A stretch of 64,000 nt of DNA from Nitrospirota bacterium (GTDB taxonomy: Bacteria; Nitrospirota; Nitrospiria; Nitrospirales; NS-4): contig VBOG01000107.1 in the NCBI GenBank assembly GCA_005877815.1, positions 53,922 to 117,921 on the forward strand. The letters run 5' to 3'. Shown here in pieces: positions 36,683-57,933 of this stretch. The notes below the pieces were generated by a model. That model made no database searches and was not told where the DNA came from. It saw only the letters and a list, made by a program, of their open reading frames with translations. The position numbers were made by a program, and so were the translations under genes. The stretch's first letter is position 1; the number at the start of each line of letters is the position of its first letter.

Positions 36683-37452
36683 AAGAGGACCGAGGTCAAA
36701 AAATAATCCCAAATAAGAATCAGCACAGAGGCCAGGACCACGGCCTCTGTCGTGGCTTTGCCGAGGCCCTCGGCGCTCATGCTGGTGTGGTACCCCTTGT
36801 ACGTGCACACCCAGGTCACGATCAACCCGAAGCTCAGCGCTTTCAGAAAGCCTCCGGAGACGTCTTTCCATTCGACGCTGGATTCCATCGAACTCGTATA
36901 GGCGCCTGAACTGACGCCAAGGAGTTGCACGCCGACCAGATAGCCTCCGTAGATGCCGATCAGATCGAAGATCGCGACCAGCATCGGCAAGACGAGGACA
37001 CCGGCCAGGACTTTCGGAGCGATGAGGTATTGCATGGGGCTGATGGCCATCGTGTCCAGCGCGTCGATCTGCTCGGTAATGCGCATCAGCCCGATCTCAG
37101 CGGTCATGGCGGAGCCCGCCCTGCCGGTGACCATCAGCGCGGCAAGCACCGGTCCCAGTTCCCGGATGATGCTGAGCGCGACGGCGGACCCGAGGAGTCC
37201 TTCTGCACCGAATTTGCGGAGCGAATAATAGCCCTGAAGCCCCAATACCATCCCGGTAAAAGAGCCGGTCAGCACGATGACAAACAGGGACTTCACCCCG
37301 ATAAAATGCATTTGTTTCAGCACCTGCACAAACCGAAACGGCGGACGGACCATCCAGGCAACCGTGCCGATCAGGAACAGCATCATTCGACCCATCTCCC
37401 GCAGGAGCCCAAGCGTGTGTCGGCCAAGACCGGCGACGGCGGTATCGATCAT
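36679..37452 (-). CDS. mlaE: MlaE-family lipid ABC transporter permease
   Basis: Integral membrane permease of the Mla-type transporter, about 257 residues from ATG 37452. Conserved segments include GSFTGMVLGLQGYYSLRKFGAE and GRAGSAMTAEIGLMRITEQIDAL, the hallmark of this family. The ATG overlaps the stop of hpnG by 4 bases (ATGA), so hopanoid metabolism and lipid transport are translationally coupled. Confidence 0.94.
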   Translation of the reverse strand: MIDTAVAGLGRHTLGLLREMGRMMLFLIGTVAWMVRPPFRFVQVLKQMHFIGVKSLFVIVLTGSFTGMVLGLQGYYSLRKFGAEGLLGSAVALSIIRELGPVLAALMVTGRAGSAMTAEIGLMRITEQIDALDTMAISPMQYLIAPKVLAGVLVLPMLVAIFDLIGIYGGYLVGVQLLGVSSGAYTSSMESSVEWKDVSGGFLKALSFGLIVTWVCTYKGYHTSMSAEGLGKATTEAVVLASVLILIWDYFLTSVLL

Positions 37453-38252
37453 CGCTGCGCTCCTATAGCCATCATGGAGATCTTTGTTTCTGTTGGCGGG
37501 ACATGCGCGCCCAGGACGATCACCAAGGCGCAAAAAAACTTCCGCAGGCTCTCAGAGGCGTGATCGGCATGGCGTTTCATCTGCCACAGACCCGGCATGA
37601 TGGTCGGCCGCTTCAGGAGTTCCCAGAAACAGCGCGCAGCGCCAAAAGGCGCAAACCACAGATTAAAGTCCATGGGCAGATCTTCAGCGACACGGTCCGA
37701 TATGGCACGGACGACCAGGAATGGAACACCGGCGGAAACGGCCACCTGTGCGATCGGCGCACTTTCCATGTCTACGGCTATCGCTCCGGTTCCGATCGCG
37801 AGGGCCTCCTTTTCGCTGGCCTGCCACAGGACACTTTTGACGGTGACCACAGGACCTTGACTCCACGTGATGACAGCATCACGCGCAGCGATAGTACCGC
37901 GTTCCCGGAATCCGATCTCGGTCTGGATCTCGCTTCGAGCGGTGTCCACAGACCAGTCAAGAACCCGAGTGCCGATAATCACGTCTCCGATCCCGGCAGC
38001 CCCTAAAGACCCCGCATATCCGGTCGAAATGATGGCATCCGGTGACCATTCGCTGACCGCTGCTTCGGTGGCTTGCCGGGCGGCTCGCGGACCGGTTCCT
38101 GTCTGCAGGAAGTACAGTTCTAGATCACCGAGCCGGCCCATGCAATAAGGAAATTGTCCCAGGCGGCTTCTAAAGAGAGGTCCGGCAGATCGGCACGCTG
38201 TCTGCGCCGGAAGAAGCTCACGGCGCGAGGCCGCTAAAACAGCCACGCGCAT
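37449..38252 (-). CDS. hpnG: Hopanoid-associated phosphorylase HpnG
   Basis: A phosphorylase/nucleosidase-superfamily protein of 267 residues. It has the glycine-rich IISTGYAGSLGAAGIGDVIIG segment and AVDMESAPIAQVAVSAGVPF, the nucleoside-binding Met-Glu region. HpnG is thought to remove adenine from adenosylhopane made by HpnH. It starts 2 bases after the squalene-hopene cyclase stop, which supports this over a general MTA/SAH nucleosidase. The C-terminal 40 residues are variable. Confidence 0.85.
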   Translation of the reverse strand: MRVAVLAASRRELLPAQTACRSAGPLFRSRLGQFPYCMGRLGDLELYFLQTGTGPRAARQATEAAVSEWSPDAIISTGYAGSLGAAGIGDVIIGTRVLDWSVDTARSEIQTEIGFRERGTIAARDAVITWSQGPVVTVKSVLWQASEKEALAIGTGAIAVDMESAPIAQVAVSAGVPFLVVRAISDRVAEDLPMDFNLWFAPFGAARCFWELLKRPTIMPGLWQMKRHADHASESLRKFFCALVIVLGAHVPPTETKISMMAIGAQR

Positions 38253-38254
38253 GA

Positions 38255-40408
38255 CTACGCTTCCAGGCGGAGATGTCCGTGCATGCGCTGGTGTTCTCGG
38301 ATTTCGTCCGCGCGGGACCGGCCCTTGGACTTGAGCGATCGATACATCGCAAGGGCCCAGAGTGGAAAATACTGACTGTAGCCATGGTAGCGAAGATAAA
38401 AGACGCGGGGGAACCCTGTCCCCGTGTGCATGCCTTCCGGCCAGGATCCGTCAGCGTCTTGATGGCGAAGAAGATAGTTGACGCCGCGCATGACGCTGAG
38501 GGACTCCATCTCTCCGGCACATAACAGCCCTATCAACGCCCACGCGGTCTGAGAAGCCGTGCTGAGACCGACGCCATGCGCCTCCTCCTCAGCATAGGAG
38601 AGACACGATTCCCCCCACCCGCCGTCAGGGTTCTGTTTGGAGACGAGCCAGATGACCGCGCGACGGACATACTCCGCCTGCATGTCTTCACCGATCGCCT
38701 TGAGACCGGCCAGCACCGACCATGTGCCGTAAATATAGTTCACGCCCCACCGCCCGTACCACGAGCCATTCTCTTCCTGCGTCTTCCGGAGAAATCGCAG
38801 AGCACGCACCGCTGCCGGATGAGACAAGCCATACCCCAATGCTCCGAGCATCTCCAACTCCCGTCCGGCGAGGTCCGCCGTGCTGGGATCCAACAACGCC
38901 CGGTGATCCGCGAACGGGATCTGATTGAACAGCATCTTATTGTTGTCCTTGTCGTAGGCTCCCCAGCCGCCGTCGCTGCTCTGCATGGCGAGCGTCCACT
39001 CCGCACCCCGTTGCATGGCGATCCGCTGAAGATCGGGCTCCGGCGTCACGATCTTCGACAGCGCGATCACGACCGCAGCCGTATCATCGTTGTCGGGGTA
39101 ATATTCATTCTCGAACTGGAAGTACCAGCCGCCGGGCTTCGCGTTCGGAGAGGAGACGATCCAGTCTCCGACCTTGTTGCATTGGCGTGCTAAGATCCAA
39201 CGAGCGGCGCGGACCAGCGCCGCGTGATCCTGAGGAAGGCCGCTTTCAATGAGCGCGCTCAGCGTCAGCGGCGTGTCCCACACCGGCGAGAAGCAGGGCT
39301 GCAAATGCAACGTGTCACCCGCATGAACCTCCAGCGCTTCAATTTCACCCAATGCCTTCCGGAAGAGAGCATCGTCGGTCTCATGTCCAAGACACCGGAG
39401 TGCAATGACGGAATTGGCCATCGCCGGATAAATCGCGCCCAAGCCGCCTTCTCCCGCCATTCGCTCGAGCATCCACTCTGCAGCGCGCTCGATCGCTTTT
39501 TTCCGGAGCCCTTTCGGGACGAGCCAATCATAGACCTTGAGGGCCGCATCCAGTGTGATAAATGCGTTCTGCCACGTGAGCCAGCGCTGATCCTTTCGGA
39601 AGGGAGGCTCGCGCCTAAAGTTCACGTCCTTGCGGGGAGTCGCATACAACTCCGCGATGCCCTGTTCCATGGAGACCCGACAGACCGGCTTCGCATTAAA
39701 GATGATCAGCAAGGGGACCAGCACCGCCCTGGACCAATACGAGAGGGCATAGAGACTGAAAAAGGTATGCGGCGGCAAGAGGATGATCTCGGCCGGCATG
39801 GTCGGCAGACCGCGCCAGTCATACTGATCGAACAAGGCCAACGTGATCTTGGTAAACACATTCGCCCGAACGACGCCCCCCTTGCTGAGAATGACTGAGT
39901 GGGCTTTCTGCATAAACGGTTCTTCGGCAGAAATGCCAGCCAGCTTTAAGGCAAAGTAGGCCTTCACCGAGGCGCTGATATCCGGTGGACCACCGTGGTA
40001 AATGGGCCAGCCGCCATCCGATAATTGCGCCTCGATCAGGTGCCGAACGGCCTTTCGCTGTTTCTCCAAGTCTACGAGGCCCAAGAACCGTCTGAGCATT
40101 ATGTATTCAGAGGTCAGGGTCGTATCCGCTTCAAGCTCGTGGACCCAATACCCGGCCTCATCCTGACGGCTCAGCAACCACGCCTGTGCCCGCCGGACCG
40201 CTTCATTCAGCGTCGCTCCCTGATGGGGAATGTATCCCGATTCGCTCCACCGAGGTTGCGCGGGAGCCTGCGAGAATAAATTGGGATTGCCGCCCACGAG
40301 GCGCATCAGGCGACGCGCATTCTGTCGGGCGCGCTGCTGCATATGCGGAGGCGCCGCGGAGAGAATTCTTTCAGACCAACTGGTCAGAAGACCGAGCAGT
40401 CGCTTCAC
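38255..40408 (-). CDS. shc: Squalene-hopene cyclase
   Basis: Cyclises squalene to hopene/hopanol in the membrane and is the committed step of hopanoid synthesis. The protein is 717 residues, at the long end for the family. The catalytic D-x-D-D-T-A motif is present near residue 435 (PDNDDTAAVV). Several QW repeats are visible (e.g. QSSDGGWGAYD, QNPDGGWGES, QDADGSWPEG). It heads a minus-strand run with hpnG, mlaEFDC, two outer-membrane proteins, dxs and ispG. Confidence 0.96.
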   Translation of the reverse strand: MKRLLGLLTSWSERILSAAPPHMQQRARQNARRLMRLVGGNPNLFSQAPAQPRWSESGYIPHQGATLNEAVRRAQAWLLSRQDEAGYWVHELEADTTLTSEYIMLRRFLGLVDLEKQRKAVRHLIEAQLSDGGWPIYHGGPPDISASVKAYFALKLAGISAEEPFMQKAHSVILSKGGVVRANVFTKITLALFDQYDWRGLPTMPAEIILLPPHTFFSLYALSYWSRAVLVPLLIIFNAKPVCRVSMEQGIAELYATPRKDVNFRREPPFRKDQRWLTWQNAFITLDAALKVYDWLVPKGLRKKAIERAAEWMLERMAGEGGLGAIYPAMANSVIALRCLGHETDDALFRKALGEIEALEVHAGDTLHLQPCFSPVWDTPLTLSALIESGLPQDHAALVRAARWILARQCNKVGDWIVSSPNAKPGGWYFQFENEYYPDNDDTAAVVIALSKIVTPEPDLQRIAMQRGAEWTLAMQSSDGGWGAYDKDNNKMLFNQIPFADHRALLDPSTADLAGRELEMLGALGYGLSHPAAVRALRFLRKTQEENGSWYGRWGVNYIYGTWSVLAGLKAIGEDMQAEYVRRAVIWLVSKQNPDGGWGESCLSYAEEEAHGVGLSTASQTAWALIGLLCAGEMESLSVMRGVNYLLRHQDADGSWPEGMHTGTGFPRVFYLRYHGYSQYFPLWALAMYRSLKSKGRSRADEIREHQRMHGHLRLEA

Positions 40409-44142: not shown

Positions 44143-44341
44143 GCGATCTCCTCTGTGAGCGGCCTTCTACCATATCTCGTGGGGAATTGTAAAGTAAAAC
44201 ACCGGATATGGGGCATGTCTCTGCACATCGCCTATCCAAGAGGGTCGCCTCTAGCGACCAAACCTTGACCCCCCAAGCACGCTTGTTTAGAATGCCACCG
44301 CTCCCGTCAGCCATACAAAAACCCCGACACCTCTCCAGTCG

Positions 44342-45388
44342 ATGAGATATTCGAACGTCTGTATTGAATCAATCGGGTATGAGTTGCCGAAACACATCGT
44401 GACTTCGGCGGAGATTGAAGCCCGCCTCAGCCCATTGTATGACCGGCTACACCTTCCTTATGGGCGCCTTGAGCTCATGAGTGGCATTCGGGAGCGGCGC
44501 TTTTGGGAGAACGGTACGAACCCGAGTGATGCCGCGACCATGGCAGGCAAGTACGCCCTGGCCCTGGCCGGTATACCTGGAAGCCAGATCGAGTGCATCC
44601 TGAACTGCTCGGTATCGCGGGATTTTCTGGAACCTGCAACGGCTGCCCTGGTGCACGCACGGTTAGGCGTAGCCCCGAAAGCCGCCGTCTTCGACATCTC
44701 CAATGCCTGCCTCGGAATGCTCAACGGCATGGTGACGCTCGGCAACATGATCGAATTAGGCCAGGTCAAAAGAGGTCTGCTTGTCGCCGGAGAAAATGGA
44801 AAACCGCTGGTTGAAACGACCATCCGGCAACTCCTTGCCGACCCGGAGATGACTCGCAAGAAGTTCAAAGATACCTTTGCCTCGCTGACCATTGGGTCCG
44901 GCGCCGCAGCGATCGTCATGACCCACGCCTCCGTCTCGAAGGACCATCACCGCCTCCTCGGCGGCGTCGCGGAGAGCGCAACGGAGCACAATGATCTGTG
45001 CCGGGGGAGCGCTGATACGGGCCTCGACTCGGACAGCGAACCCGCCATGTCGACCCAGTCGGAGGTGCTGATGAAAAGTGGATGTGCGCTGGCCGGGCGG
45101 ACGTGGGCGGACTTCAAACAGGAACTTGGCTGGACAGACGCGGAGGTGACCAGGACGTTCTGCCATCAAGTGGGCGTGGCCCATCGGCGCCTCCTGTTGG
45201 AGACCCTGAAGCTTGACCCCTCGATCGACTATCCGACGGTCGAGTTTTTGGGGAACATGGGGTCGGCATCGCTGCCCGTCACCATGGCCCTCAGCATCGA
45301 GGCCGGCCATGTGCACCGCGCGGACAAGCTTGCCCTGCTGGGCATCGGCAGCGGCCTCAATTGCCTGATGTTGGGAGTTGAATGGTAG
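44342..45388 (+). CDS. oleA: OleA: acyl-CoA head-to-head condensing thiolase-fold enzyme
   Basis: Condenses two fatty acyl chains into a beta-keto acid with two alkyl tails. The 348-residue thiolase-fold protein has nucleophile Cys123 in ISNACLGML, His275 in CHQVGVAH and Asn305 in LGNMGSA. Glu97 in RDFLEPAT matches the second-channel glutamate that sets OleA apart from FabH. The order oleA-oleB-oleC-oleD downstream makes the call firm. It overlaps oleB by 7 bases. It differs from ordinary KAS III by the LELMSGIRERRFW segment. Confidence 0.92.
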   Translation: MRYSNVCIESIGYELPKHIVTSAEIEARLSPLYDRLHLPYGRLELMSGIRERRFWENGTNPSDAATMAGKYALALAGIPGSQIECILNCSVSRDFLEPATAALVHARLGVAPKAAVFDISNACLGMLNGMVTLGNMIELGQVKRGLLVAGENGKPLVETTIRQLLADPEMTRKKFKDTFASLTIGSGAAAIVMTHASVSKDHHRLLGGVAESATEHNDLCRGSADTGLDSDSEPAMSTQSEVLMKSGCALAGRTWADFKQELGWTDAEVTRTFCHQVGVAHRRLLLETLKLDPSIDYPTVEFLGNMGSASLPVTMALSIEAGHVHRADKLALLGIGSGLNCLMLGVEW

Positions 45389-46263
45389 CGACGTCTTTTC
45401 AAGAGCTGTATCCTTTTCAATCTCACTACCTGCCGCTCGACGGGTTAAAGTACCACTACCTGGACGAAGGATCGGGAGATCCCCTCATCATGCTGCACGG
45501 GAATCCAACCTGGTCCTTCTACTATCGACGCCTCATCGCAGAATTCCGCAAGACATATCGCGTGATCGCCCCCGATCATATGGGCTGCGGCTTCTCCGAC
45601 AAACCGCAAACCTACGCCTACCGGCTCGCGCAGCACATTGACAATCTCGATGCGCTGCTGCAACACCTGGACCTCAAACGCGTCACCCTGTGTCTTCACG
45701 ACTGGGGCGGACCGATCGGTATGGGATGGGCCCTACGGCATCCCGAACGAATCTCGCGCTTCGTCATCTTCAACACCGCGGCCTTCCCGTCATCACGGAT
45801 TCCTTTGCGCATCAACCTCTGCAAATTGCCGGTTGTCGGCGATCTGGCGATCCGCCGATTGAATGCCTTCGCGGGATTGGCACTCACGATGGCAACGGCC
45901 CAGCCCCAGCGCATGACCCGCGCGGTCAAGGACGGCTATCTCGCGCCCTATGACAGCTACGCCAACCGCATCGCACACTTGCGGTTCGTGCAAGATATCC
46001 CGATGCACTCGGGCCATCCGACATATGCGCTGATCAATGACATCGGAAAGGGGCTCGCACGCTTTCGGCAGACGCCGATGCTCATTATTTGGGGCGAACA
46101 GGACTGGTGTTTCACCCCTGAATTTCTCGAGCGGTGGGTGGAATATTTCCCGCACGCGAAGGTGCGGCGCGTCAGTGATGCCGGCCACTACGTGGTGGAG
46201 GATGCCTACGAGCGGATCATCCCATGGCTTCACGAATTCCTCGCCGCACACCCTCTGACATGA
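45382..46263 (+). CDS. oleB: OleB: alpha/beta-hydrolase, beta-lactone decarboxylase
   Basis: Haloalkane-dehalogenase-like hydrolase that decarboxylates cis-beta-lactones to olefins in known Ole pathways. The 293-residue protein has the oxyanion motif HGNPTW, the aspartate nucleophile in LHDWGGPIG (Asp107) and the terminal His in SDAGHYVVED (about residue 269). Its stop overlaps the oleC start (ATGA). If OleB is active the end product is an alkene. Pathways without it keep the beta-lactone. Confidence 0.9.
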   Translation: MVATSFQELYPFQSHYLPLDGLKYHYLDEGSGDPLIMLHGNPTWSFYYRRLIAEFRKTYRVIAPDHMGCGFSDKPQTYAYRLAQHIDNLDALLQHLDLKRVTLCLHDWGGPIGMGWALRHPERISRFVIFNTAAFPSSRIPLRINLCKLPVVGDLAIRRLNAFAGLALTMATAQPQRMTRAVKDGYLAPYDSYANRIAHLRFVQDIPMHSGHPTYALINDIGKGLARFRQTPMLIIWGEQDWCFTPEFLERWVEYFPHAKVRRVSDAGHYVVEDAYERIIPWLHEFLAAHPLT

Positions 46264-47927
46264 TGCCGCTGACATCCTCGGCGGTCAGTCCGGACCTTTT
46301 GAACATCGCACGCCACCTGCCGGCGATGGCCATGCGCCATCCGGAACAGGATGCCGTCATTCATTCGAAGGACGGCTCTCGCCTGACGTTTCGTCACCTC
46401 AATGAAGATGCCGACCGGTACGCCCATGGATTAACTCGACTCGGGATCCGCCGAGGCGCTCGAACGCTGGTGATGATTCGTCCCGGTCAGGAGTTCGTCG
46501 CGGTGGCTTTCGCCCTGTTCAAGATGGGCGCGATCTCCGTGCTGTTAGACCCCGGCATGGGACGAACCAGTCTCTTGCGCTGCATCGAGGAGGTGGAACC
46601 TCATGCGTTCATCGCCGTCTCCATGGCGCATGCCGCCCGCCTCCTCCGGCCACGCGCATTCAAGAGCGTGAAGCATTGGGTCACCGTCGGCCCCCGATGG
46701 TTCTGGAGTGGGCCCACGCTCTCGCAGATCAGGGCACTGGAACGTCAATCGCGCGAGTTCCCTTGCGCCGACACACGAACCGATGAGACCGCGGCGATCC
46801 TATTTACCTCCGGCAGCACGGGGATCCCCAAAGGCGTCGTCTATGAGCACGGCATGTTCGACGCCCAAATCCGTTCGCTCCGCGAGTCTTACGGCATCAG
46901 GGAGGGGGAAATTGATCTTCCGGCGTTTCCACTCTTCGCCTTGTTCAGCGTGGCAATGGGAATGACGGTTGTGATTCCCGATATGGATTGTTCACGCCCG
47001 GCGCGGGTCAACCCCGAAACGTTCGCCCGGACGGTTTTGGAGTATGGCGTCAATCAATCGTTCGGATCCCCTGCGATCTGGGACCGCGTGGGCCGCTACT
47101 GTGCCGGAAGACAACACGTCCTGCCTTCGCTCACCCGCGTTCTCATGGCTGGAGCTCCCGCGCCGCTTCATGTCATCGAACGCCTACGACATATTCTCCC
47201 CGAATCCGGAGACGTGCACACCCCCTACGGCGCAACGGAGGCGCTGCCGGTCTCCTCCATCAGCGGCAGAGACATTCTCGGCGAAACGGCCGAACGAACG
47301 CGCGCAGGTGACGGCACCTGCGTCGGCAAGATGTGTCCAGGCATCACGCTTCGCATCATTCGCGTCTCGGAGGAACCGATTCCAGCGTGGAACGACAGTC
47401 TGGCGCTTCCGGCACATGAAATCGGCGAGATCGTCGTGAAGGGTCCTGTCGTCACACGCACGTACTATCGGAATGACCGGGCCACGTCGCTGGCAAAAAT
47501 CAAGGACGGCAATGCCTGGTGGCACCGCATGGGAGACGTCGGCTATCTGGATGACCATGGACGGCTCTGGTTCTGCGGGCGCAAGGCCGATCGCGTGGAC
47601 ACCGCAGTCGAAACCTTGTACACCGAGCCATGCGAAGCCATTTTCAACCAGCATCCGGCGGTGTCGCGCTCGGCGCTTGTCGGGGTCGGCCGCGAGAAAA
47701 CTCGACGACCGGTCATGATCATCGAGCCGCGCCGGGGCCATTTTCCGCGAAGTCCCGAGACCGCCGTGCGATTCAGTCATGAACTCCGGGAGCTCGCGAA
47801 GGGCCATTCGGTGACGTCGTCTATCACCGCGTTTCTGTTTCATCCAAACTTCCCCGTGGATGTTCGCCACAATGTCAAAATCTCCCGGGACATGCTGGCG
47901 CTCTGGGCTGAGGAGCGAATGCGGTGA
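46260..47927 (+). CDS. oleC: OleC: AMP-dependent beta-lactone synthetase
   Basis: Adenylate-forming enzyme that closes the beta-hydroxy acid to a beta-lactone. It has 555 residues from ATG 46260. The ATP motif FTSGSTGIPKGV is visible, as are YGATEALP and the hinge GDVGYLDDHGRLWFCGRKAD. The track start at 46224 lies within oleB. The ATG chosen overlaps the oleB stop by 4 bases, which fits translational coupling. Confidence 0.92.
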   Translation: MMPLTSSAVSPDLLNIARHLPAMAMRHPEQDAVIHSKDGSRLTFRHLNEDADRYAHGLTRLGIRRGARTLVMIRPGQEFVAVAFALFKMGAISVLLDPGMGRTSLLRCIEEVEPHAFIAVSMAHAARLLRPRAFKSVKHWVTVGPRWFWSGPTLSQIRALERQSREFPCADTRTDETAAILFTSGSTGIPKGVVYEHGMFDAQIRSLRESYGIREGEIDLPAFPLFALFSVAMGMTVVIPDMDCSRPARVNPETFARTVLEYGVNQSFGSPAIWDRVGRYCAGRQHVLPSLTRVLMAGAPAPLHVIERLRHILPESGDVHTPYGATEALPVSSISGRDILGETAERTRAGDGTCVGKMCPGITLRIIRVSEEPIPAWNDSLALPAHEIGEIVVKGPVVTRTYYRNDRATSLAKIKDGNAWWHRMGDVGYLDDHGRLWFCGRKADRVDTAVETLYTEPCEAIFNQHPAVSRSALVGVGREKTRRPVMIIEPRRGHFPRSPETAVRFSHELRELAKGHSVTSSITAFLFHPNFPVDVRHNVKISRDMLALWAEERMR

Positions 47928-48925
47928 AGGCCCTCGTCACCGGAGGCGGGGGGTTCCTGGGCCGGCATATCGTCTCCAAGTTGCTGGCACGAGGCGATTC
48001 GGTCCGAGTGCTGGGGCGTCAGGCATACTCCGATCTGGAAGCGCGGGGTGTCGAAACAATCCGGGCCGATCTGCAGAATGCGACGGCAGTTGAGCAGGCC
48101 TGCCGTGGAATGGACATGGTCTTCCATGCGGGGGCCCGGACCGCCTATTGGGGGGCCTGGCGCTCGTTCTACGGAACGAACGTTCTGGGGACGCGAAATG
48201 TTCTCGAAGGATGCCGGAAGGGCGCTGTGCGCAAACTGATTTATACCAGCACGCCGAGCGTCGTGTGGGCCCACGGAGGCCTTGAGGGAATGGACGAGTC
48301 GGTCCCCTATCCTGATCGGTATACGTGCCCCTATCCCGCTACCAAGGCCATCGCCGAACGGCTGGTCTTAGAGGGGAACGGCGTCGGTGGTCTCCTGACC
48401 GTCTCCCTGCGGCCCCATCTGATTTTCGGTCCGGGCGACCCACATCTGTTCCCTCGGATCATCGAGCGCGCGTGTCGGGGGCAATTGGTGCAAGTCGGAG
48501 ACGGCACGAACAAGGTGGATGTCGTCTATGTGGAGAACGCGGCCGACGCCCACCTGCTCGCCGCCGACAAGCTGGGGGCTGGTTCGCCAGTCAATGGTCA
48601 TGCATATTTCATTTCACAGGGAGTGCCCGTGGTGCTCTGGGCATGGATTAATGGGATACTGGAGCGGATGCAGTTCCCTCACGTCGGCCGGAAAGTGTCG
48701 TACGGAATGGCCAGGGCTGTTGGAGCGGCGATGGAGATCGCCTATACTGTGTTACCGCTGCCTGGGGAACCGAGAATGACGCGCTTCCTGGCAGACCAAT
48801 TGGCCACCTCGCATTACTTCGACATTTCCCGCGCGCGCAAGGACCTCGGCTACGAACCTCGGATCAGCACCGAGGACGGATTGGACCGAACGATCAAGGC
48901 GCTCCAAAGTGGTTCTCTAAATTGA
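47924..48925 (+). CDS. oleD: OleD: NADPH-dependent beta-keto acid reductase
   Basis: Extended short-chain dehydrogenase/epimerase that reduces the OleA product to a beta-hydroxy acid. The Rossmann motif TGGGGFLG (residues 6-13), the catalytic YPATK (Tyr137, Lys141) and STPS upstream are seen. The 333-residue product starts with GTG at 47924, overlapping the oleC stop by 4 bases. OleB, OleC and OleD form one multi-enzyme assembly in organisms studied. Confidence 0.92.
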   Translation: MKALVTGGGGFLGRHIVSKLLARGDSVRVLGRQAYSDLEARGVETIRADLQNATAVEQACRGMDMVFHAGARTAYWGAWRSFYGTNVLGTRNVLEGCRKGAVRKLIYTSTPSVVWAHGGLEGMDESVPYPDRYTCPYPATKAIAERLVLEGNGVGGLLTVSLRPHLIFGPGDPHLFPRIIERACRGQLVQVGDGTNKVDVVYVENAADAHLLAADKLGAGSPVNGHAYFISQGVPVVLWAWINGILERMQFPHVGRKVSYGMARAVGAAMEIAYTVLPLPGEPRMTRFLADQLATSHYFDISRARKDLGYEPRISTEDGLDRTIKALQSGSLN

Positions 48926-50493
48926 CTGCCATGGCCGACATCGTCTTAATCAATCCGCGTTTCGAGATTTCCTTCTGGGGTCTGGAACATGTCCTGCCGA
49001 TCATGGGGAAAAGAGCCAACATGCCGGTGGGCAGCTTGCCGCTGCTGGCGGCTTTGACGCCGGCGCCGCACCAGGTGACGCTGATCGATGAGAATGTCGA
49101 GGCCATCGACTTCGAGCGCGTGGCCCGGGCGGACATTGTCGGGCTGACCGGGCAGATCGTGCAGCGTTTTCGCATGCGCGAGATCCTGGCCGAGCTCAAG
49201 GATCGCGGTGCCTGCACGATCGTGGGCGGGTCATGGGTCAGCGTGCAGGAGGACTACTTTGAAGGCCTCGCCGACGTCATTTTCGTGGGCGAGGCGGATG
49301 AGAGCTGGCCGCGCTTCTTGCGGGAGTGGGAACAGGGCCGGCACCAGGGTCGCTACCAGCAAGCCCAGCAGACCGACATGAGTACCGTGCCGACGCCGCG
49401 CTTCGACCTCTTGAAGATGCAGCACTACCTGTTCGGCAGCGTGCAGTTCTCACGCGGCTGTCCCTTCAAGTGCGAGTTCTGCGATATCCCGATCAACTTC
49501 GGCCACCGTCCGCGGCTCAAAACTTCCGCCCAGATGATGGCCGAGCTGGATGCCCTGCGCGCCCAGAACACCGACATCGTCTTCATCGTCGATGACAACC
49601 TGATCGGCAACAAGAAAGCCATCAAGGTGCTGCTCCGCGACCTGATTGACTACCAGCGAGACCACGGGTATTTCTTTCACTTCTTCACCGACACGTCCCT
49701 GGACCTGGCCGAGGATGCCGAGCTGATGGACCTGATGGCCCAGGCCAATATCGTGGCTGTCTTCATCGGCATCGAAAGTCCGAACGAGGACTCCTTGCGT
49801 GAGACCAAGAAGTTTCAGAACGTCCGTGCCGGCGGCTCGATGCTGGAAAAGGTCTGGCGCATCCAGGAGGCGGGCATGGAGGTGATGTCCGGCATGATCC
49901 TGGGTTTCGACCACGACAACGCCGGCATCTTCGAGGCCCAGCTCGAATTCATGACGCGGGCCCGCATCGTGGATACTTCGGTCGGCATGCTCTATGCCAT
50001 CCCGAAGACGCCTTTGCATGCCCGCCTGGCCGCCGAAGGACGCCTCGACCCGCAAGACGATTCCGAATTCGGCACCAATGCCATCCCCTTGAAGATGAGC
50101 CGTGAAGAGCTGCGGGACGGCTACATCAAGGTGATCAGCGATCTGTACGAGCCCAAGGCGTTCTTCGGCAGGCTGGAAGATCTGGTGCTGCATGGCCACC
50201 TGGACTATGGCAGGGCCGTGAGACGCTACTGGCGCGGCCATCCCCGGGCCTGGTTCAAGACCCAGGCCAAGAACCTGGTCCGTTCTCTTGTGCTGTACCA
50301 GCGTTTGATGTGGGGCATTCCGGAAGGTTCGCTGCGCCGCGAATACCGCCGCCGACTCGGCCGCCTTTTACAGTTCAGCCGCAATCCCAGTCTTTTCCTG
50401 ATGTATGTCATCAAATGTGGCTTGCACTACCACCAGTACACCCGTGCCAGCCAAATGGCTGCTGGCGTGAGCCGGCCGTTGATAGGGGCCTAA
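48922..50493 (+). CDS. B12-binding-domain radical SAM protein (HpnP/DUF4070-like)
   Basis: The 523-residue protein has a cobalamin-binding-type N-terminal domain (VTLIDENVEAIDF, VGLTGQIVQRFR, then IVGGSWVS). A radical SAM core follows with Cys180, Cys184 and Cys187 in RGCPFKCEFCDIP. The C-terminal region is of the DUF4070 type (e.g. AIPKTPLHARL). The overall layout is close to the hopanoid C-2 methylase HpnP, but the operon is not a hopanoid operon, so methylation or rearrangement of a fatty acyl chain or hydrocarbon is an alternative. The TTG at 48922 overlaps the oleD stop. ATG 48931 is also possible. Confidence 0.82.
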   Translation: MTAMADIVLINPRFEISFWGLEHVLPIMGKRANMPVGSLPLLAALTPAPHQVTLIDENVEAIDFERVARADIVGLTGQIVQRFRMREILAELKDRGACTIVGGSWVSVQEDYFEGLADVIFVGEADESWPRFLREWEQGRHQGRYQQAQQTDMSTVPTPRFDLLKMQHYLFGSVQFSRGCPFKCEFCDIPINFGHRPRLKTSAQMMAELDALRAQNTDIVFIVDDNLIGNKKAIKVLLRDLIDYQRDHGYFFHFFTDTSLDLAEDAELMDLMAQANIVAVFIGIESPNEDSLRETKKFQNVRAGGSMLEKVWRIQEAGMEVMSGMILGFDHDNAGIFEAQLEFMTRARIVDTSVGMLYAIPKTPLHARLAAEGRLDPQDDSEFGTNAIPLKMSREELRDGYIKVISDLYEPKAFFGRLEDLVLHGHLDYGRAVRRYWRGHPRAWFKTQAKNLVRSLVLYQRLMWGIPEGSLRREYRRRLGRLLQFSRNPSLFLMYVIKCGLHYHQYTRASQMAAGVSRPLIGA

Positions 50494-50501
50494 CTCTCGT
50501 C

Positions 50502-51737
50502 ATGATGGATAAGCACCGGCGCATCGTCATCACCGGCATCGGCCTCACGGCCCCGAATGGCAATACGTTGGACGCCTTTCGCGCGAGTCTGTTGAAGGGC
50601 GTTTCGGGCGTCGTTCCGTTTGAGACCCGTTATATGGGGAAGGTGCTCGCCGGCGTCTGCACATACGATCCGTTGAAGTATCAGATGAAGAAAGAAGTGC
50701 GGCGCGGGACGCGGGCGGGATCCATCGCCATCTATTGTTCCCGTGAAGCCATGGCGGATTCCAAGCTGGATTTCGTATCGTTCGACAAAAGTCGCGTCGG
50801 CGTCTATCTCGGCATCACGGAGCACGGCAACGTCGAGACCGAGAACGAAATCTACAACATCAGCCAATTCAACTACGATACCAAGTTCTGGTCGCATCAC
50901 CACAATCCCCGAACCGTCGCCAATTCTTCGGCGGGCGAGGTGACATTGAACATGGGCATCACCGGTCCGCACTATACGATCGGTGCCGCCTGCGCCGCGG
51001 GGAATGCCGGCGTGATCCAGGGGGCGCAGATGCTGCTGCTCGGCGAGGTCGACATCGCACTGGCCGGCGGCGTCTCCGAGAGCATCCATACATTCGGGAT
51101 CTTCGCCAGCTTCGCCAGCCAGGGAGCGTTGGCATCCCATCCCGACCCCGCCAAGGCCTCGCGGCCCTTTGATCGCGACCGGAACGGCATCGTCTGCTCG
51201 GAAGGCGGCTGTGTGTACGTGCTGGAGCGCCTCGACCATGCCGAAGCGCGGGGCGCCCAAATCTATGGAGAGATCATCGGCTATCACATCAATTCCGACG
51301 CGACGGATTTTGTGCTTCCCAATGCGGAACGGCACATCGAGTGCATGCGGACTGCGCTCAAGAAAGCCGGGCTCGGCCCGCAGGACATTGACGTTGTCAG
51401 CACGCATGCCACGGCCACCCCGCTGGGGGATATCCAGGAATGCATCGCGCTCCGGACGGTCTTTGCCGACTGCCTGAATACGCACTTCAACAATACGAAG
51501 AGCTTCATTGGTCATGCCATGGGCGCGGCCGGTGCCTTGGAGCTGGCGGGCAATCTCCCCTCCTTCGACGACGGCCTGATCCATCACACCATCAATGTGG
51601 ACCATCTCGACCCAGACTGTGCGCTGGACAATTTGGTCTTGCACGAGCCGAGGCGGGTGCGGCATGTCACCTACGTACTGAACAATTCCTCCGGCATGCT
51701 GGGAATCAACTCCGTGGTGGTTGTAAAACGCGTGTAA
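50502..51737 (+). CDS. Beta-ketoacyl-ACP synthase (KAS II/FabF-like)
   Basis: Elongating condensing enzyme of 411 residues with the Cys-His-His triad: Cys164 in GAACAAGNAG, His302 in STHATATP and His338 in FIGHAMGAAGALE. GITGIGLTAPNG-like opening and SSAGEVTLNMG are typical. The track start at 50310 is far upstream inside the radical SAM gene. ATG 50502 is just past that stop. It is a single condensing enzyme without a chain-length-factor partner and is followed directly by its own ACP, so it likely serves a dedicated acyl chain rather than bulk membrane lipid. Confidence 0.9.
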   Translation: MMDKHRRIVITGIGLTAPNGNTLDAFRASLLKGVSGVVPFETRYMGKVLAGVCTYDPLKYQMKKEVRRGTRAGSIAIYCSREAMADSKLDFVSFDKSRVGVYLGITEHGNVETENEIYNISQFNYDTKFWSHHHNPRTVANSSAGEVTLNMGITGPHYTIGAACAAGNAGVIQGAQMLLLGEVDIALAGGVSESIHTFGIFASFASQGALASHPDPAKASRPFDRDRNGIVCSEGGCVYVLERLDHAEARGAQIYGEIIGYHINSDATDFVLPNAERHIECMRTALKKAGLGPQDIDVVSTHATATPLGDIQECIALRTVFADCLNTHFNNTKSFIGHAMGAAGALELAGNLPSFDDGLIHHTINVDHLDPDCALDNLVLHEPRRVRHVTYVLNNSSGMLGINSVVVVKRV

Positions 51738-51793
51738 ATCGTGTATTTTTTGACGCCGATTGTGACCAGCGAAAACGTCGGGGAAGTCGACTG

Positions 51794-52045
51794 ATGACCA
51801 ATGACCAGATCAAGCACGCGGTGCTGCAGATTATCGCTGTCATCGCACCGGATGAAGATCTGAGTCACGTGAAGAGCGATGTCGCGTTGAGGGATCAGTT
51901 GGAACTGGATTCCATGGATTTCCTCGACATCGTGATGGAATTGCGCAAGCGGTACGGGGTCGAGGTGCCGGAAGGCGATTATGGACAACTCGCCAGCCTC
52001 GACAGTTGCGTCATCTATCTCGCCCCGAAGCTCAAAGACAAGTAA
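51794..52045 (+). CDS. Acyl carrier protein
   Basis: An 83-residue carrier protein. The phosphopantetheine attachment serine is Ser40 in LELDSMDFLDIV, as in ACP families. It starts at ATG 51794, 56 bases after the KAS stop. The track frame from 51440 is longer but runs through the KAS gene. An ACP private to this operon would keep its acyl chains apart from normal fatty acid synthesis. No phosphopantetheinyl transferase is encoded in the window. Confidence 0.92.
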   Translation: MTNDQIKHAVLQIIAVIAPDEDLSHVKSDVALRDQLELDSMDFLDIVMELRKRYGVEVPEGDYGQLASLDSCVIYLAPKLKDK

Positions 52046-52118
52046 TCGTCTCTCGCTCCGTCTTTCCGACGTTCTCTCAGCTGTGAGCGCCCACGAATTT
52101 CGGTATAATCCAGCCGCC

Positions 52119-53519
52119 ATGGCCCAGACTCACTACGATGTCATCATCATCGGCGCGGGGATGTCCGGCATGGCGGCAGGCATCAGGCTGGCATATTTCG
52201 ACAAGTCCGTCTGCGTGTTGGAGCGGCACTATGCCGCGGGTGGGCTCAATTCCTTCTACGCATTGGACGGGCATCAATTCGATGTCGGCCTTCATGCCAT
52301 GACGAATTACGTCCGGCCCGGCACGCGCGGCGCTCCCCTCACGAAAATCTTTCGCCAATTGCGCTTGACGCCGGAGGATTTCGGATTGGCGCCGCAGCAT
52401 CATTCCGAGGTGCGCTTCCCGGGCAAGACGCTCCGTTTCAACAACGACTTTAGATGTTTCGTCCAGGACGTCGTCGACAACTTCCCCGCACAGGCTGACC
52501 ACTTTGTCAGGCTGGTGAAGCACATCCAGGAATACGACGAACTGGACCTCGAGGCGCCGCCGCGTTCAGGGAGAGCGGTCGTCTCCTCCTTCCTCAGCGA
52601 CCCTTTGCTGACGGACATGATCTTCTGCCCCCTGATGATTTATGGGAATGCTCAGGAGCGCGACATGGAATTCGGCCAGTTCGTCGTGATGTTCAAGAGC
52701 ATCTTCTGCGAAGGCCTCGGCCGCCCGCGGGAAGGCGTGCGGCGTATCATCACCGCGCTCCGACGAAAACTACGTGAGGTCGGCGGGACCGTCCGGATGA
52801 AATGCGGCGTCCAGGCACTGAATGCCGAAGGCACGCGGATCACCTCGGTGACCTTGGATACCGGCGAGATCCTCACTGCCAACACGATCCTCTCGTCGGC
52901 GGGATATGTGGAAACGATGCGCCTCTGCGGAACAGACCATGCCACGCTGGCTCCGATGGAAGGCCGGCTGTCCTTCGTGGAGATTATCTCCATCCTCGAC
53001 CAGCCGATGAAACACCTCGGCCACGACGCCACCATCATCTTTTACAATACCGGCAAGGAGTTTCATTACGAGACGCCGAAGAACCTGGTCGACGCGCGCA
53101 GCGGCGTCATCTGCTGCCCCGACAACTTCCTCTTCGACAAGCCGCTTCCGGAAAGCATGATCCGGCTGACCTGCCTCGCGAACTTCGACGGCTGGAACGC
53201 GCTTGACGAACCGGCCTACCTTCGAGCCAAGACGGAGTGGCTTCCGAAGATCCAGCAGGAAGTGCTACACTTCATCCCCGATTTCAGACACCATGTCGTC
53301 TACACCGATTTCTTTACGCCGCGGACCATCCAGAAATGGACGGGGCATCTCAATGGCGCAGTGTACGGCGCTCCCGAGAAGCTGAAAACCGGAAAGACTC
53401 CCATTGAGAACCTCTTCATCTGCGGCACAGATCAAGGTTTCCTCGGCATCGTCGGAGCCATGCTGAGCGGCATCTCCATGGCCAATCTTCACGTGTTGAA
53501 AAGAGCCCATGCCCGCTGA
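52119..53519 (+). CDS. Phytoene desaturase-like FAD oxidoreductase (first copy)
   Basis: The 466-residue flavoprotein of the CrtI/RetSat amine-oxidase-like superfamily starts with the FAD motif [16 protein letters not shown], then [13 protein letters not shown]. The C-terminal flavin motif [19 protein letters not shown] closes it. Known relatives desaturate, isomerise or saturate conjugated polyenes. ATG 52119 marks the start because the FAD motif follows directly. It overlaps the second flavoprotein by 11 bases. Substrate is unknown. The ACP and KAS context suggests an acyl chain. Confidence 0.85.
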
Positions 53520-54963
53520 CTGGCTGAAAGACGTCAAACACGACTACGACGTGATCGTCATCGGCTCGGGATTGGCGGGCCTGACGGCAGCCAACCGCCT
53601 GGCCACCTGCGGCTATTCCGTGCTGCTGCTCGAGCACCATTATAATTTCGGCGGCATGGCCACCTGGTTCAAACGCCGGGGCAACCACATCTTCGACATT
53701 TCCCTGCATGGCTTTCCGATCGGCATGGTGAAAACATGCCGCAAGTACTGGTCGGCCGACATCGCCGATTCCATCGTGCAGATCAAGGGCATCCGCTTCG
53801 ATAACCCGCAGTTCTCCTTCACCACCACCTTTGACAGGACCGACTTCACCGACAAGCTCGTCACCTATTTCAAGATCCCGCCGGCCACGGTGGAGGCCTT
53901 CTTTCAGTTTGCCCGGAGCATGAATTTCTACGACGATCAGGCGATGACGACTCGCGATCTGTTCCAGAAATACTTTCCCGGCCGTCACGACCTGTGGCGT
54001 CTGCTGATGGAACCCATCGCGTATGCCAATGGTTCGACGCTCGACGATCCGGCTATCACCTTCGGCATCGTCTTTTCGAATTTCATGAACAAGGGTGTGT
54101 ACACGTTTCAAGGCGGCACCGACAAGCTCATCATGAAGATGAAAGCCACGCTGAAGGCCCACGGGGTCGACTTGCGCCACCATGCGCTGGTGGAAAAAGT
54201 GCTGATTGAAAAGGAACGGGTCGCCGGCGTCGTGTGCAACGGGCGCACGATCCGTGCGAAGGCGGTCCTCTCCAACGCCAACCTGACCGCCACGATTCAT
54301 TCCCTGGTCGGCGACGAGTATTTCGGGTCGGACTTCATCCGGGAAGCCAGAGCCGTCCGGCTGAACAGCAGCAGCTGCCAGGTGTACATGGGGATCCGCA
54401 AAGGGGAGACGATCCCCAACATCGGCGATCTGTTCTTCACCTCCTCCCACCCGGTGTTTGACTCCGAGGCGCTGAACGCCATGGACGTGACCAGCCGCAC
54501 CTACTCCCTCTACTACCCGGACACGCGCCCGGGGTCGGACCGCTACGCCATCGTGTGTTCGACGAACGCCAACTACAGGGATTGGGCCGCGTTGAACGAG
54601 GATGCGTACCGACGGGAAAAAGAGCGGCTCATCGAAGGCGTCGTCGCCACGCTCGAGAAATATCTTCCCGGCGTTCACGGCAAAATCGATCATCTTGAAG
54701 CCTCGACGCCCCGCACCTTCGAGCACTACACCCGGCATGTCAACGGAGCGTCGTTCGGCACCAAGTTCGAGGGGCTGAAGGTCAGCCAGAATCTTCCCAA
54801 ACAAATCAGCGGACTCTTTCATGCAGGATCCGTCGGCATCATCATGTCCGGCTGGCTCGGCGCCATCAACTATGGGGTGATCGTCGCGAACGAGATGGAC
54901 AAACATCTGCGGCAGGCCACGGGGTGTATGGTTCAGTCTCCGGCCATGGCGACCCATGAGTAG
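53509..54963 (+). CDS. Phytoene desaturase-like FAD oxidoreductase (second copy)
   Basis: The 484-residue relative of the preceding gene has [20 protein letters not shown] and [16 protein letters not shown] at the N-terminus. [20 protein letters not shown] is the C-terminal flavin motif. The two copies differ widely in sequence, so they probably act on different steps or form a heteromer. It overlaps the preceding gene by 11 bases and the FabG-like gene by 8 bases. Confidence 0.85.
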
Positions 54964-55708
54964 GGCGAGCTTCGACTACAGCAGTCAGACGATCGTCGTG
55001 ACCGGAGGCACCCGCGGGATCGGCCGCGCGATTTCCCGGCGGTTCCTCGACGCAGGGGCAACGGTGGTGGCGACCTACACCGCCAACCGCGATGCCGCGG
55101 ACGAGTTCAAGACGTCAGCTGGGCCTGCCGCCGACCGGTTGCATCTGAGGAAATTTGAGGTCGAGGATTACGCGCAGGCGAAGGCGTTTTATGCCTATCT
55201 CGAAAAAGAACACAAACACTTCACCGTGCTGATCAACAACTCGGGCATCCGGAGGGATTCGGTCCTTGCGATGATGCCGCTGGACGACTGGCAAAAGGTG
55301 CTGGACGTCAACCTCACCGGCGCGTTCAACATGTCCAAGTTGGCCGTCCTGATGTTCATGGCCAATCGGTATGGCCGCATCATCACGATCACGTCCCCCT
55401 CAGGACGTTTCGGGTTCGAGGGGCAGGCCAATTACGCCGCCTCCAAGGCCGGATTGGTCGCGATGACCCGCTCGCTCTCGAAAGAAGTCGCGTCTCGCGG
55501 TATCACCGTGAACTGCGTCTCGCCGGGGCTTATTGACACGGACTTCATCGCGGATCTCCCCGACAAGTTGCGCAAGGAATATCTCGCCGCCATTCCCCTG
55601 AAGCGTTTCGGCACCCCGGACGAAGTGGCGGCCAGCGTGCTCTTCCTTGCATCGCGCGATGCGGACTACATCACCGGCTCGGTCCTCTCGGTTGACGGAG
55701 GCATGTAG
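54956..55708 (+). CDS. FabG-like 3-oxoacyl-ACP reductase
   Basis: Classical short-chain dehydrogenase of 250 residues. The cofactor motif [20 protein letters not shown] and the catalytic Ser and YAASK are present, and the C-terminal SVLSVDGGM is typical of FabG. It would reduce the beta-keto group made by the KAS. It follows the second flavoprotein with an overlap and is followed by the FabZ-like gene without a gap. Confidence 0.9.
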
Positions 55709-56185
55709 GTGGCGCCCCGTGACCACGTCAACGAAGCCCTGGCGCTGATTCCCCATCGCCCGCCGTTTCTTTTTCTCGATGAGATCCTCGAGCGAAGCAC
55801 CACCCGCATCAAGGCACTCAAGACGCTCGATCCTGAGGAACCATACCTGACCGGACATTTTCCCGGCCATCCCATCATGCCTGGCGTCTTGCTGTGCGAG
55901 TGTATCTTCCAAGCCGGGGCGGCACTCCTTTTCGGTCGGGGGACGATCCCATCAGGCACGGTCCCGGTACTGGCGAAAATCCAGAACGCCCGGTTTCGCA
56001 GGCCGGTGAGGCCCGGTGCTCGCCTCGTGATCGAGGCGGAGATTAGCGAAGAAATCGCGAACGCCGTCATTATGAAAGGCGCCATCACGGTTGATGGACA
56101 CAATGTGCTGCGCACCGAGTTCATCGTGACCATGGCATCGCTCGGCGCGCCGCTCGATGAGCCGAGGAACGGGAGCCTGCCATGA
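55709..56185 (+). CDS. FabZ-like 3-hydroxyacyl-ACP dehydratase
   Basis: Hot-dog-fold dehydratase of 158 residues, starting with GTG directly after the FabG-like stop. [13 protein letters not shown], the catalytic His in FPGHPIMPG and the catalytic Glu in [10 protein letters not shown] match FabZ. It makes a trans-2-enoyl chain. Its stop overlaps the FabI-like start by 4 bases. Confidence 0.9.
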
Positions 56186-56985
56186 GCTTTCTCGGGTTGG
56201 AGGGCAAAACCATCGTCGTGTTCGGCGTGGCCAACAAGAAATCGGTGGCCTTCCATATCGGCCAGGTACTGGATGAGGCAGGCGCCAAGGTGGTCTATGT
56301 GGTGCGCTCCAAAGAACGAAAAGATACGGTGGCCCGGCTGTTGCCGGACGCGGAGATCCACGTCTGCGACGTCGAACGCGAACACGACATTGTGGCCGTG
56401 GCGGCGGACATCATGCCGGCACATCCGGTCATCCATGGGCTCGTGCATTCCATCGCCTTCGCCGACTATCACGGCGGCCTGAAGGCGTTCCATGAGACCG
56501 ATCGCAAGGCCTTCCTCCAGTCGGTAGACATCTCCTGCTACTCGCTGATCGCCATCGCCAAGGCCTTCAAATCTCATCTGGCGCCGGACGCCTCGGTGGT
56601 CACGATCTCCATCTCCACAACAAGGATGGCGGCTGAAAACTACGGCTTCATGGGACCCGTCAAGGCGGCGCTCGATTCGACCATCTGTTTTCTCGCCAAG
56701 TCCTTCAGCGGCTCCTCCCATGTGCGCTTCAATTCAGTCAACCCGGGGCTGCTGAAGACGTCGGCGTCAGCGGGCATCCCAGGCTATGCCGATGACTATC
56801 TCTACGCCGAACGCCTGACGCTCCGAAAGAAAGGCGTGACGACCAGGGAAGTCGCACATGCCGCGGCGTTCCTGCTCAGCGAACGCTCGTCGGGCATCAA
56901 TGCGCAGGGCATCGTCCTCGATGCGGGGATGTCGGTGAATTACTTCGACAAGGAGCTGATCAAGCGGGCGATGAGGCCTGAGTGA
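56182..56985 (+). CDS. FabI-like enoyl-ACP reductase
   Basis: Enoyl reductase-like SDR of 267 residues with the FabI-type cofactor motif [13 protein letters not shown]. The tyrosine-lysine pair is present in [13 protein letters not shown] (Tyr and Lys spaced as in FabI). The first FabI tyrosine, normally in the LSYLGAE segment, is missing here (TISISTTRM). This may change substrate range or activity, for example leaving some double bonds unreduced. It is followed without gap by the ChaN-like gene. Confidence 0.85.
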
Positions 56986-57933
56986 ATGCGCGGCCTGGCC
57001 CTTCTTCTCGTCTTCGTATCGAGCTTCTTCTATCCCGCCGCACTTCTCTCCGCCGATGATGTGCCACTCGGTTTTCAACCGTGGCAGATTGTTGAGACCA
57101 AAACGGGTCACGTCGTCACCTTCGACGACCTATTGACGCAGGTCAATGGCGCGGACGTCGTCTACCTCGGGGAGGAACACCGGAACGCCGCCCATATCGA
57201 GTCTGCGATCAAGGTTCTTCACGGGCTTGTAGCCCGCCACCGGCGTCCCATTGTGGCGATGGAGATGTTCGGCTGGGACGGCCAGACGACCCTGGATCGC
57301 TACCTGAATGACCCGAAGATGTCCAAGGAAAACTTCATGCATGACGCGCGCTGGAAGGAGAACTGGGGAGGCGACTACTCTGACTACGCGCCACTAGTCA
57401 ACCTGGCGCGTGACCGGGGATTACCGCTGCTCGCGTTAAACCCACCGCGACCCCTGGTCCGGCGAGTCGCAAAGGAGGGGCTGGCCAATGTTAAGGACGA
57501 CTCCGATATGACGCGGTGGGGCATGCGTGACGAGGTCTTGTACGAAGACGGCGCCTATCATGACATCATTCTCAAACAGCTTCGTTCCTGCCATACGGGC
57601 CTTGCCGATGAGGCGTACCAACGGATCTACCAGGCGTCCGTGTTCCGGGATGAAGGCATGGCGAAGACGATCTCGCAAGCCCTGCATCGACTGTCCGAGG
57701 GCGGCGGTCCCATCGTCAGCTACACGGGGGGAGGCCACATTCAGTACGGCTTACCGGTCCCCAACCGCGTGGCGAGAAAAGAGCGTCGGCCGGTGCGCCA
57801 AATCACCGTCTATCTTCAGGGCTTCGATCCAACGCGGACAGAAGAGATTCACGCGCTCTTGCGGGAAGGCATTGCGGACTACGTCTGGCTGACGCCGCTC
57901 AGCACGCACGGCCCTTCCGGACGGTGCCTGTAA
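56986..57933 (+). CDS. ChaN/Tiki-like exported protein
   Basis: The 315-residue protein has a signal peptide (LALLLVFVSSFFYPAALLSA) and the ChaN-type fold. GADVVYLGEEHRNAAH near residue 55 and YTGGGHIQYGLP near the C-terminus match the conserved ends of the haem-binding ChaN/erythromycin-esterase-like group. No lipobox cysteine is present. It ends the operon. Its role there is not obvious. A link to export or to a metal cofactor is speculative. Confidence 0.75.
   Translation: MRGLALLLVFVSSFFYPAALLSADDVPLGFQPWQIVETKTGHVVTFDDLLTQVNGADVVYLGEEHRNAAHIESAIKVLHGLVARHRRPIVAMEMFGWDGQTTLDRYLNDPKMSKENFMHDARWKENWGGDYSDYAPLVNLARDRGLPLLALNPPRPLVRRVAKEGLANVKDDSDMTRWGMRDEVLYEDGAYHDIILKQLRSCHTGLADEAYQRIYQASVFRDEGMAKTISQALHRLSEGGGPIVSYTGGGHIQYGLPVPNRVARKERRPVRQITVYLQGFDPTRTEEIHALLREGIADYVWLTPLSTHGPSGRCL

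Follow-up and report, generated by a model that had tools for sequence, protein, structure and literature searches.

An ole operon with its own fatty-acid-synthase-like gene set in soil Nitrospirota, a candidate pathway to long unsaturated hydrocarbons

The 64,000-nucleotide stretch of Nitrospirota DNA analysed here (the window) carries 13 tightly packed, co-directional genes on its plus strand at 44342-57933, with intergenic gaps of -11 to +73 bases (Table 1). They are ordered oleA, oleB, oleC, oleD, a B12-binding/radical S-adenosylmethionine (SAM) gene, a ketoacyl-acyl carrier protein synthase (KAS), an acyl carrier protein (ACP), two phytoene desaturase-like proteins (PD1 and PD2), FabG, FabZ, a FabI-like gene and a ChaN-like gene. 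This layout agrees with a preliminary description that joined OleABCD to a fatty acid synthase (FAS)-like gene set in one thirteen-gene operon. Its gene list was right otherwise, but the radical SAM gene, placed last there, sits between oleD and KAS, and the thirteenth gene is the ChaN-like one. Protein assignments come from Pfam and NCBIfam models and, for OleA, additionally from the closest solved structures.

The first four genes encode clustered OleA, OleB, OleC and OleD proteins with their catalytic residues, the gene complement of the olefin pathway. In that pathway OleA condenses two acyl chains, OleD reduces the product, OleC closes a beta-lactone and OleB expels CO2; beta-lactones are made by OleC, and ketones arise from OleA alone. 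The structures closest to the window OleA are 3fk5, 3row and 4ku3, which we take to be Xanthomonas OleA, and their kin (E ~1e-70). OleC matches PRK09274 with 716 bits and the olefin beta-lactone synthetase models with 569-605 bits, under their cut-offs, and OleD matches the 2-alkyl-3-oxoalkanoate reductase models with 338-375 bits, also under cut-off. Alignments retain the Cys, His, Asn and Glu of OleA in 19/19 homologs, the Asp and His of OleB in 23/23, the Lys of the OleC motif SGSTGIPKG in 27/27, and the Tyr/Lys of OleD in 31/31. The oleC gene starts at either 46224 or 46260, and relatives agree better with the latter.

The FAS-like half is equally well preserved at its active sites, with the Cys-His-His-Lys of KAS intact in 41/41 homologs, the phosphopantetheine Ser of ACP in 48/48, the Ser-Tyr-Lys of FabG in 35/35 and the His/Glu of FabZ in 57/57. 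The FabI-like protein retains Tyr156 and Lys163, and Tyr146 is replaced by Ile in all 49 homologs aligned, inside an invariant IS(S/T)T motif; it appears to be an altered reductase, perhaps one that leaves polyene intermediates untouched or copes with them. PD1 and PD2 score 62.6 and 82.6 bits against the CrtI phytoene desaturase model TIGR02734, whose cut-off is 238, and the best NCBIfam match of both is a carotenoid isomerase model, far under its cut-off. The best fold match of both AlphaFold2 models is the gamma-carotenoid desaturase 4rep (template modelling score, TM, 0.73 for PD2), and they resemble CrtI as well. Apart from the operon KAS, a single further full KAS is encoded in the window genome; it belongs to a different gene cluster, which also includes FabH-like and FabG-like genes.

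Table 1. Genes of the ole/FAS-like operon in the window (SDR, short-chain dehydrogenase/reductase; FAD, flavin adenine dinucleotide; pLDDT, predicted local distance difference test)
Feature	Position	Strand	Evidence
OleA, head-to-head condensing thiolase-fold enzyme	44342..45388	+	OleA-type structures best, E ~1e-70
OleB, alpha/beta hydrolase, haloalkane-dehalogenase-like beta-lactone decarboxylase	45382..46263	+	family models; conserved Asp/His
OleC, AMP-binding beta-lactone synthetase	46260..47927	+	models; Lys in SGSTGIPKG conserved
OleD, 2-alkyl-3-oxoalkanoate reductase (SDR)	47924..48925	+	models; conserved Tyr/Lys
B12-binding/radical SAM protein with DUF4070	48931..50493	+	models; outside conserved unit
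KAS, FabF-like ketoacyl-ACP synthase (KAS II)	50505..51737	+	models; intact Cys-His-His-Lys
Dedicated ACP	51794..52045	+	PF00550; phosphopantetheine Ser
PD1, CrtI/CrtISO-like FAD protein	52119..53519	+	models; AlphaFold2 pLDDT 88
PD2, second CrtI/CrtISO-like FAD protein; best system marker	53509..54963	+	models; AlphaFold2 pLDDT 86
FabG-like ketoacyl-ACP reductase	54956..55708	+	models; Ser-Tyr-Lys
FabZ-like hydroxyacyl-ACP dehydratase	55709..56185	+	NF000582 above its cut-off; His/Glu
FabI-like SDR, Ile for Tyr146 (E. coli numbering), IS(S/T)T motif	56182..56985	+	models and alignment
ChaN-like (Cofac_haem_bdg) protein	56986..57933	+	model match; 0-base gap after FabI-like gene

The carriers form a group of soil Nitrospirota, the family of the window genome. 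PD2 is present in seven of eight family genomes including the window's, with 83-84% identity in the other six, and OleC is present in the same seven (62-67% in the other six) and, at E<=1e-60, in no other genome among 147 searched of the order. The series oleA-B-C-D-KAS-ACP-PD1-PD2-FabG-FabZ-FabI is contiguous in three relatives and is interrupted only by contig ends in the other three. The linkage that the preliminary description had proposed to check in relatives thus holds within the family, where both halves occur in seven of eight genomes and every contig fits one operon. The genomic setting of the operon in relatives differs from that in the window, and neither the radical SAM gene, nor ChaN, nor the flanking window genes were found beside it in the family. 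Since these genes are missing there, the functional unit, as judged from gene neighbourhoods, is the eleven genes of 44342-56985 minus 48931-50493, and the earlier inclusion of the radical SAM protein in the system is not supported, its gene being absent between oleD and KAS in relatives. This B12-binding protein with DUF4070 is inserted in the operon in the window genome only and is a possible tailoring enzyme.

A scan of named genomes with a PD2 alignment yielded 264 relatives, of which the best 80 come from Nitrospirota, Planctomycetota, Nitrospinota and one genome labelled Wallbacteria; the genomes compared include incomplete metagenome-assembled ones. An OleC ortholog (45-55% identity) is present in 49 of 50 PD2 genomes spanning several phyla, and OleA was detected in 10 of 14 Nitrospinota, one of these sequences being partial, and in all 27 other PD2 genomes tested. 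An even sample of 246 Planctomycetota genomes contained PD2 (E<=1e-60) in 51, OleC (E<=1e-100) in 87 and both in 49; the two apparent PD2-only genomes carry linked ole genes on inspection, so that 51/51 PD2 genomes have Ole. For 19 of these 49 genomes and both exceptions (21 planctomycetes), the halves lie within ~20 kb of each other, in many orders and orientations, with ole before, after or divergent. A KAS ortholog accompanies PD2 in 23/23 planctomycetes, versus 0/9 of those with Ole and no PD2. Beyond the family, linkage recurs in many Planctomycetota; in Nitrospinota the halves co-occur apart: KAS-ACP-PD1-PD2-FabG-FabZ-FabI follow one another in the same order and ole does not adjoin them. 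Recurring in all PD2-carrying family genomes and in many Planctomycetota, the linkage is far beyond chance.

In linked loci, pairwise distances of Ole proteins correlate with those of KAS, PD1, PD2, FabI and FabZ at r 0.82-0.95, similar to values within each half, and shared ancestry contributes to this correlation. For Ole against the KAS/PD/Fab genes the range given is 0.82-0.97. For OleC and PD2, r is 0.91 after a length filter that removes partial and over-long sequences and 0.27 without it. KAS and PD2 are better conserved than OleC.

Comparison of feeder genes in the planctomycetes reveals a second pattern. A search with the PfaA model TIGR02813 covered 45 genomes with PD2 and Ole, 34 with Ole and no PD2, and the window genome. 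Matches above the curated cut-off occur in 0/45 of the former versus 27/34 of the latter, and none was found in the window genome. Six more PD2-less Ole planctomycetes have strong partial matches (633-892 bits), leaving a single one (G383) without a PfaA match, and the strongest match among PD2 carriers, 647 bits (G502), lies under the cut-off. By these counts, Ole in Planctomycetota is accompanied by either the PD2 set or Pfa as its feeder. On the OleC tree the PD2 and Pfa groups are separated at a single branch with an SH-aLRT support of 98. In some PD2-less Ole planctomycetes, such as G363, G413 and G477, the PfaA-type synthase lies ~14-16 kb from OleC, so pfa and ole are linked there too.

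We consider it likely that the eleven-gene core forms a self-contained route to long unsaturated hydrocarbons, with the KAS-ACP-PD set doing the job of Pfa. KAS, its own ACP, FabG, FabZ and the FabI-like protein would elongate the chain, and PD1 and PD2 would introduce and/or reposition double bonds while it is bound to ACP. The polyenoyl-ACP would be passed to OleA, which would join two chains head to head; OleD would then reduce the product, OleC would close the beta-lactone and OleB would expel CO2 to give a polyunsaturated olefin of considerable length, such as C31:9. From OleA onward these steps are those of established Ole chemistry. What we infer is that PD1 and PD2 act on acyl-ACP, how unsaturated and how long the chains are, and that they pass directly to OleA. 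The set would fill the role of Pfa synthase in Shewanella, a role that this synthase probably has in other Planctomycetota too, and the set most likely replaces it as the feeder of (poly)unsaturated chains to OleA. The earlier proposal that a dedicated set feeds special chains to OleA gains support from the co-occurrence of the two halves and from the exclusion and apparent replacement of Pfa synthase. These chains may be polyunsaturated, because of that replacement and because C31:8 and C31:9 hydrocarbons are made by Desulfotalea and by planctomycetes too (Rattray et al. 2009, PMC2649909). It is an even call whether KAS-ACP-PD1-PD2-FabG-FabZ-FabI represents a new type of de novo polyunsaturated fatty acid (PUFA) synthase, composed of discrete type II proteins, that serves OleABCD alone and occurs in three phyla or more. 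Such a synthase would use two carotenoid-desaturase-like flavoenzymes to make the polyene with neither oxygen-dependent desaturases nor Pfa.

Several observations weigh against this pathway. Nitrospinota and several complete genomes of Planctomycetota have the halves apart. PD1 and PD2 exceed the cut-off of no curated function model, and their CrtI-like relatives from anammox bacteria were without phytoene desaturase activity (Javidpour 2016, PMC4790861), which leaves desaturation by PD1 and PD2 a putative activity. Neither a FabA-like isomerase nor a thioesterase is found among the genes of the FAS-like set. Several independent feeder swaps were sought on the OleC tree and not found; the single branch therefore reflects one old divergence, and the Fisher p of 4e-25 overstates the exclusion since the genomes are not independent.

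The alternatives differ in what they make of the chain and of its fate. An end product that is a beta-lactone or ketone natural product and not an olefin is very unlikely: OleC does make beta-lactones and OleA alone gives ketones, but the operon also encodes OleB and OleD, whose catalytic residues are conserved, and the beta-lactone that the preliminary description named as one of two products becomes less likely because of this OleB. The product of the FAS-like set might instead be an unusual membrane fatty acid, polyunsaturated or of another kind, from which Ole draws off a part, the hydrocarbon being a side branch. The set does stand apart from Ole in Nitrospinota and many Planctomycetaceae, and Pfa synthase serves both eicosapentaenoic/docosahexaenoic acid and hydrocarbon production (PMC6463001); a membrane pathway would, however, be expected to occur alone, and PD2 is practically never found without Ole, so we regard this as unlikely. 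It is quite improbable that the set supplies a saturated, branched or trans chain, with PD1 and PD2 acting as CrtISO-like isomerases or reductases and the olefin not polyunsaturated. The sub-threshold carotenoid isomerase matches of both proteins and the lack of a FabA-type isomerase in the set speak for such a role, yet a private set would be needless for a saturated chain, since the core FAS serves Ole of the Xanthomonas type (PMC6463001), and the replacement of Pfa points to polyunsaturation.

A ladderane-type pathway, in which the radical SAM and CrtI-like enzymes would give cyclised chains, is extremely improbable. Candidate clusters of Kuenenia also combine KAS, ACP, FabZ, CrtI-like and radical SAM proteins (PMC2649909, PMC4790861), but the radical SAM gene is in the operon of no relative, and its product scores 54.9 bits on the ladderane model TIGR04072, against a cut-off of 360. 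The single operon KAS has an intact Cys-His-His, and the ladderane-type non-canonical partner KAS lacking Cys163 (PMC2649909 Table 2) is not present in the operon. By sequence comparison the operon is a system distinct from the ladderane one, if apparently a related one, because the probable anammox genomes sampled have no PD2 (E<=1e-60) and no OleA or OleC orthologs, and hold only distant KAS and PD proteins (25-33% alike).

Other loci of this kind were encountered along the way. Two probable anammox ladderane clusters (L237 and L239, in G394 and G474) each contain two KAS genes together with radical SAM, FabZ and CrtI-like genes; L237, but not L239, also has a FabG match. TIGR04072 proved too broad as an anammox marker, with some match in 91 of 246 genomes and 14 above cut-off. 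Loci L142 and L143, labelled Candidatus Kuenenia stuttgartiensis, carry a planctomycete-type PD2, with OleC as well in the genome of L142; the labels look wrong, and neither was counted as anammox. Distant PD2 matches outside the family (148 Nitrospirota searched) belong to other KAS-FabZ-KAS-PD clusters and were set aside as a different system. FabG-KAS-FabZ-KAS-CrtI-like clusters are present in other Nitrospirota families (L061-L070, e.g. L061:5356-10492), and one KAS of each departs from the canonical residues, with Phe for Cys and Glu for the second His, a pattern listed for anammox Kuste2805 in PMC2649909. Nitrospirota thus seem to harbour KAS/partner clusters of the ladderane type.

The operon is flanked upstream by an SMC gene and downstream by a gene for an HD-domain protein, both on the opposite strand. 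Promoter and terminator scans of the locus gave no matches above chance level, and the sole promoter-like match in the gap 5' of oleA lies at 44265-44293. Beyond the SMC gene, a squalene-hopene cyclase gene adjoins a phosphorylase-superfamily gene on the minus strand (37449-40408), probably a hopanoid locus.

How bacteria make polyunsaturated C31 hydrocarbons independently of Pfa has been a question since at least 2009 (PMC2649909). Rattray et al. proposed that PUFA are made anaerobically in Kuenenia and Desulfotalea by an extension of type II FAS (FASII) that includes phytoene-dehydrogenase-like enzymes, Desulfotalea having FASII and CrtI-like clusters and no polyketide synthase; the portions of that paper available ascribe polyunsaturated hydrocarbons to decarboxylation and do not mention Ole. 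The preliminary description knew of no account of this combination, and a literature search that covered few subscription journals likewise found no paper joining a FASII/CrtI-like set to Ole or contrasting it with Pfa, but the idea of FASII plus CrtI for polyunsaturated hydrocarbons is older. The seven-gene feeder set that follows Ole in Nitrospirota, Planctomycetota and Nitrospinota provides named candidate genes for genetics. Should the flavoproteins desaturate acyl-ACP, polyenes would be formed by an enzyme chemistry that is new, and the set would be a small and modular substitute for the giant Pfa complex. The set may also help to explain the related anammox ladderane genes.

Similar to the OleABCD systems of Xanthomonas and Shewanella, the window operon encodes the same four proteins with the same catalytic residues in the order oleABCD; unlike them, it continues into a private KAS-ACP-PD1-PD2-FabG-FabZ-FabI set. 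The FASII clusters of Kuenenia and Desulfotalea share KAS, ACP, FabZ, FabG and CrtI-like enzymes with it, but contain several radical SAM enzymes and have no Ole link stated in the available portions of PMC2649909, Desulfotalea being compared by description only. PD1 and PD2 have the fold (4rep, TM ~0.7) and FAD motif of the CrtI/CrtISO carotenoid desaturase/isomerase family, at only 18-19% identity in the structural match. In marine bacteria OleA accepts a predicted 16:4 chain from Pfa synthase (PMC6463001), and pfa-like Type I clusters are linked to Ole in Deltaproteobacteria and one planctomycete (Shulse and Allen 2011, PMC3098273). These systems, in Shewanella and Photobacterium (PMC6463001) and, as Type I clusters, in Geobacter and Gemmata (PMC3098273), resemble the present one in having a dedicated second FAS, often ole-linked, that feeds OleA; the difference is that Pfa is a giant multidomain synthase, whereas the Nitrospirota operon encodes discrete type II proteins and two CrtI-like flavoproteins.

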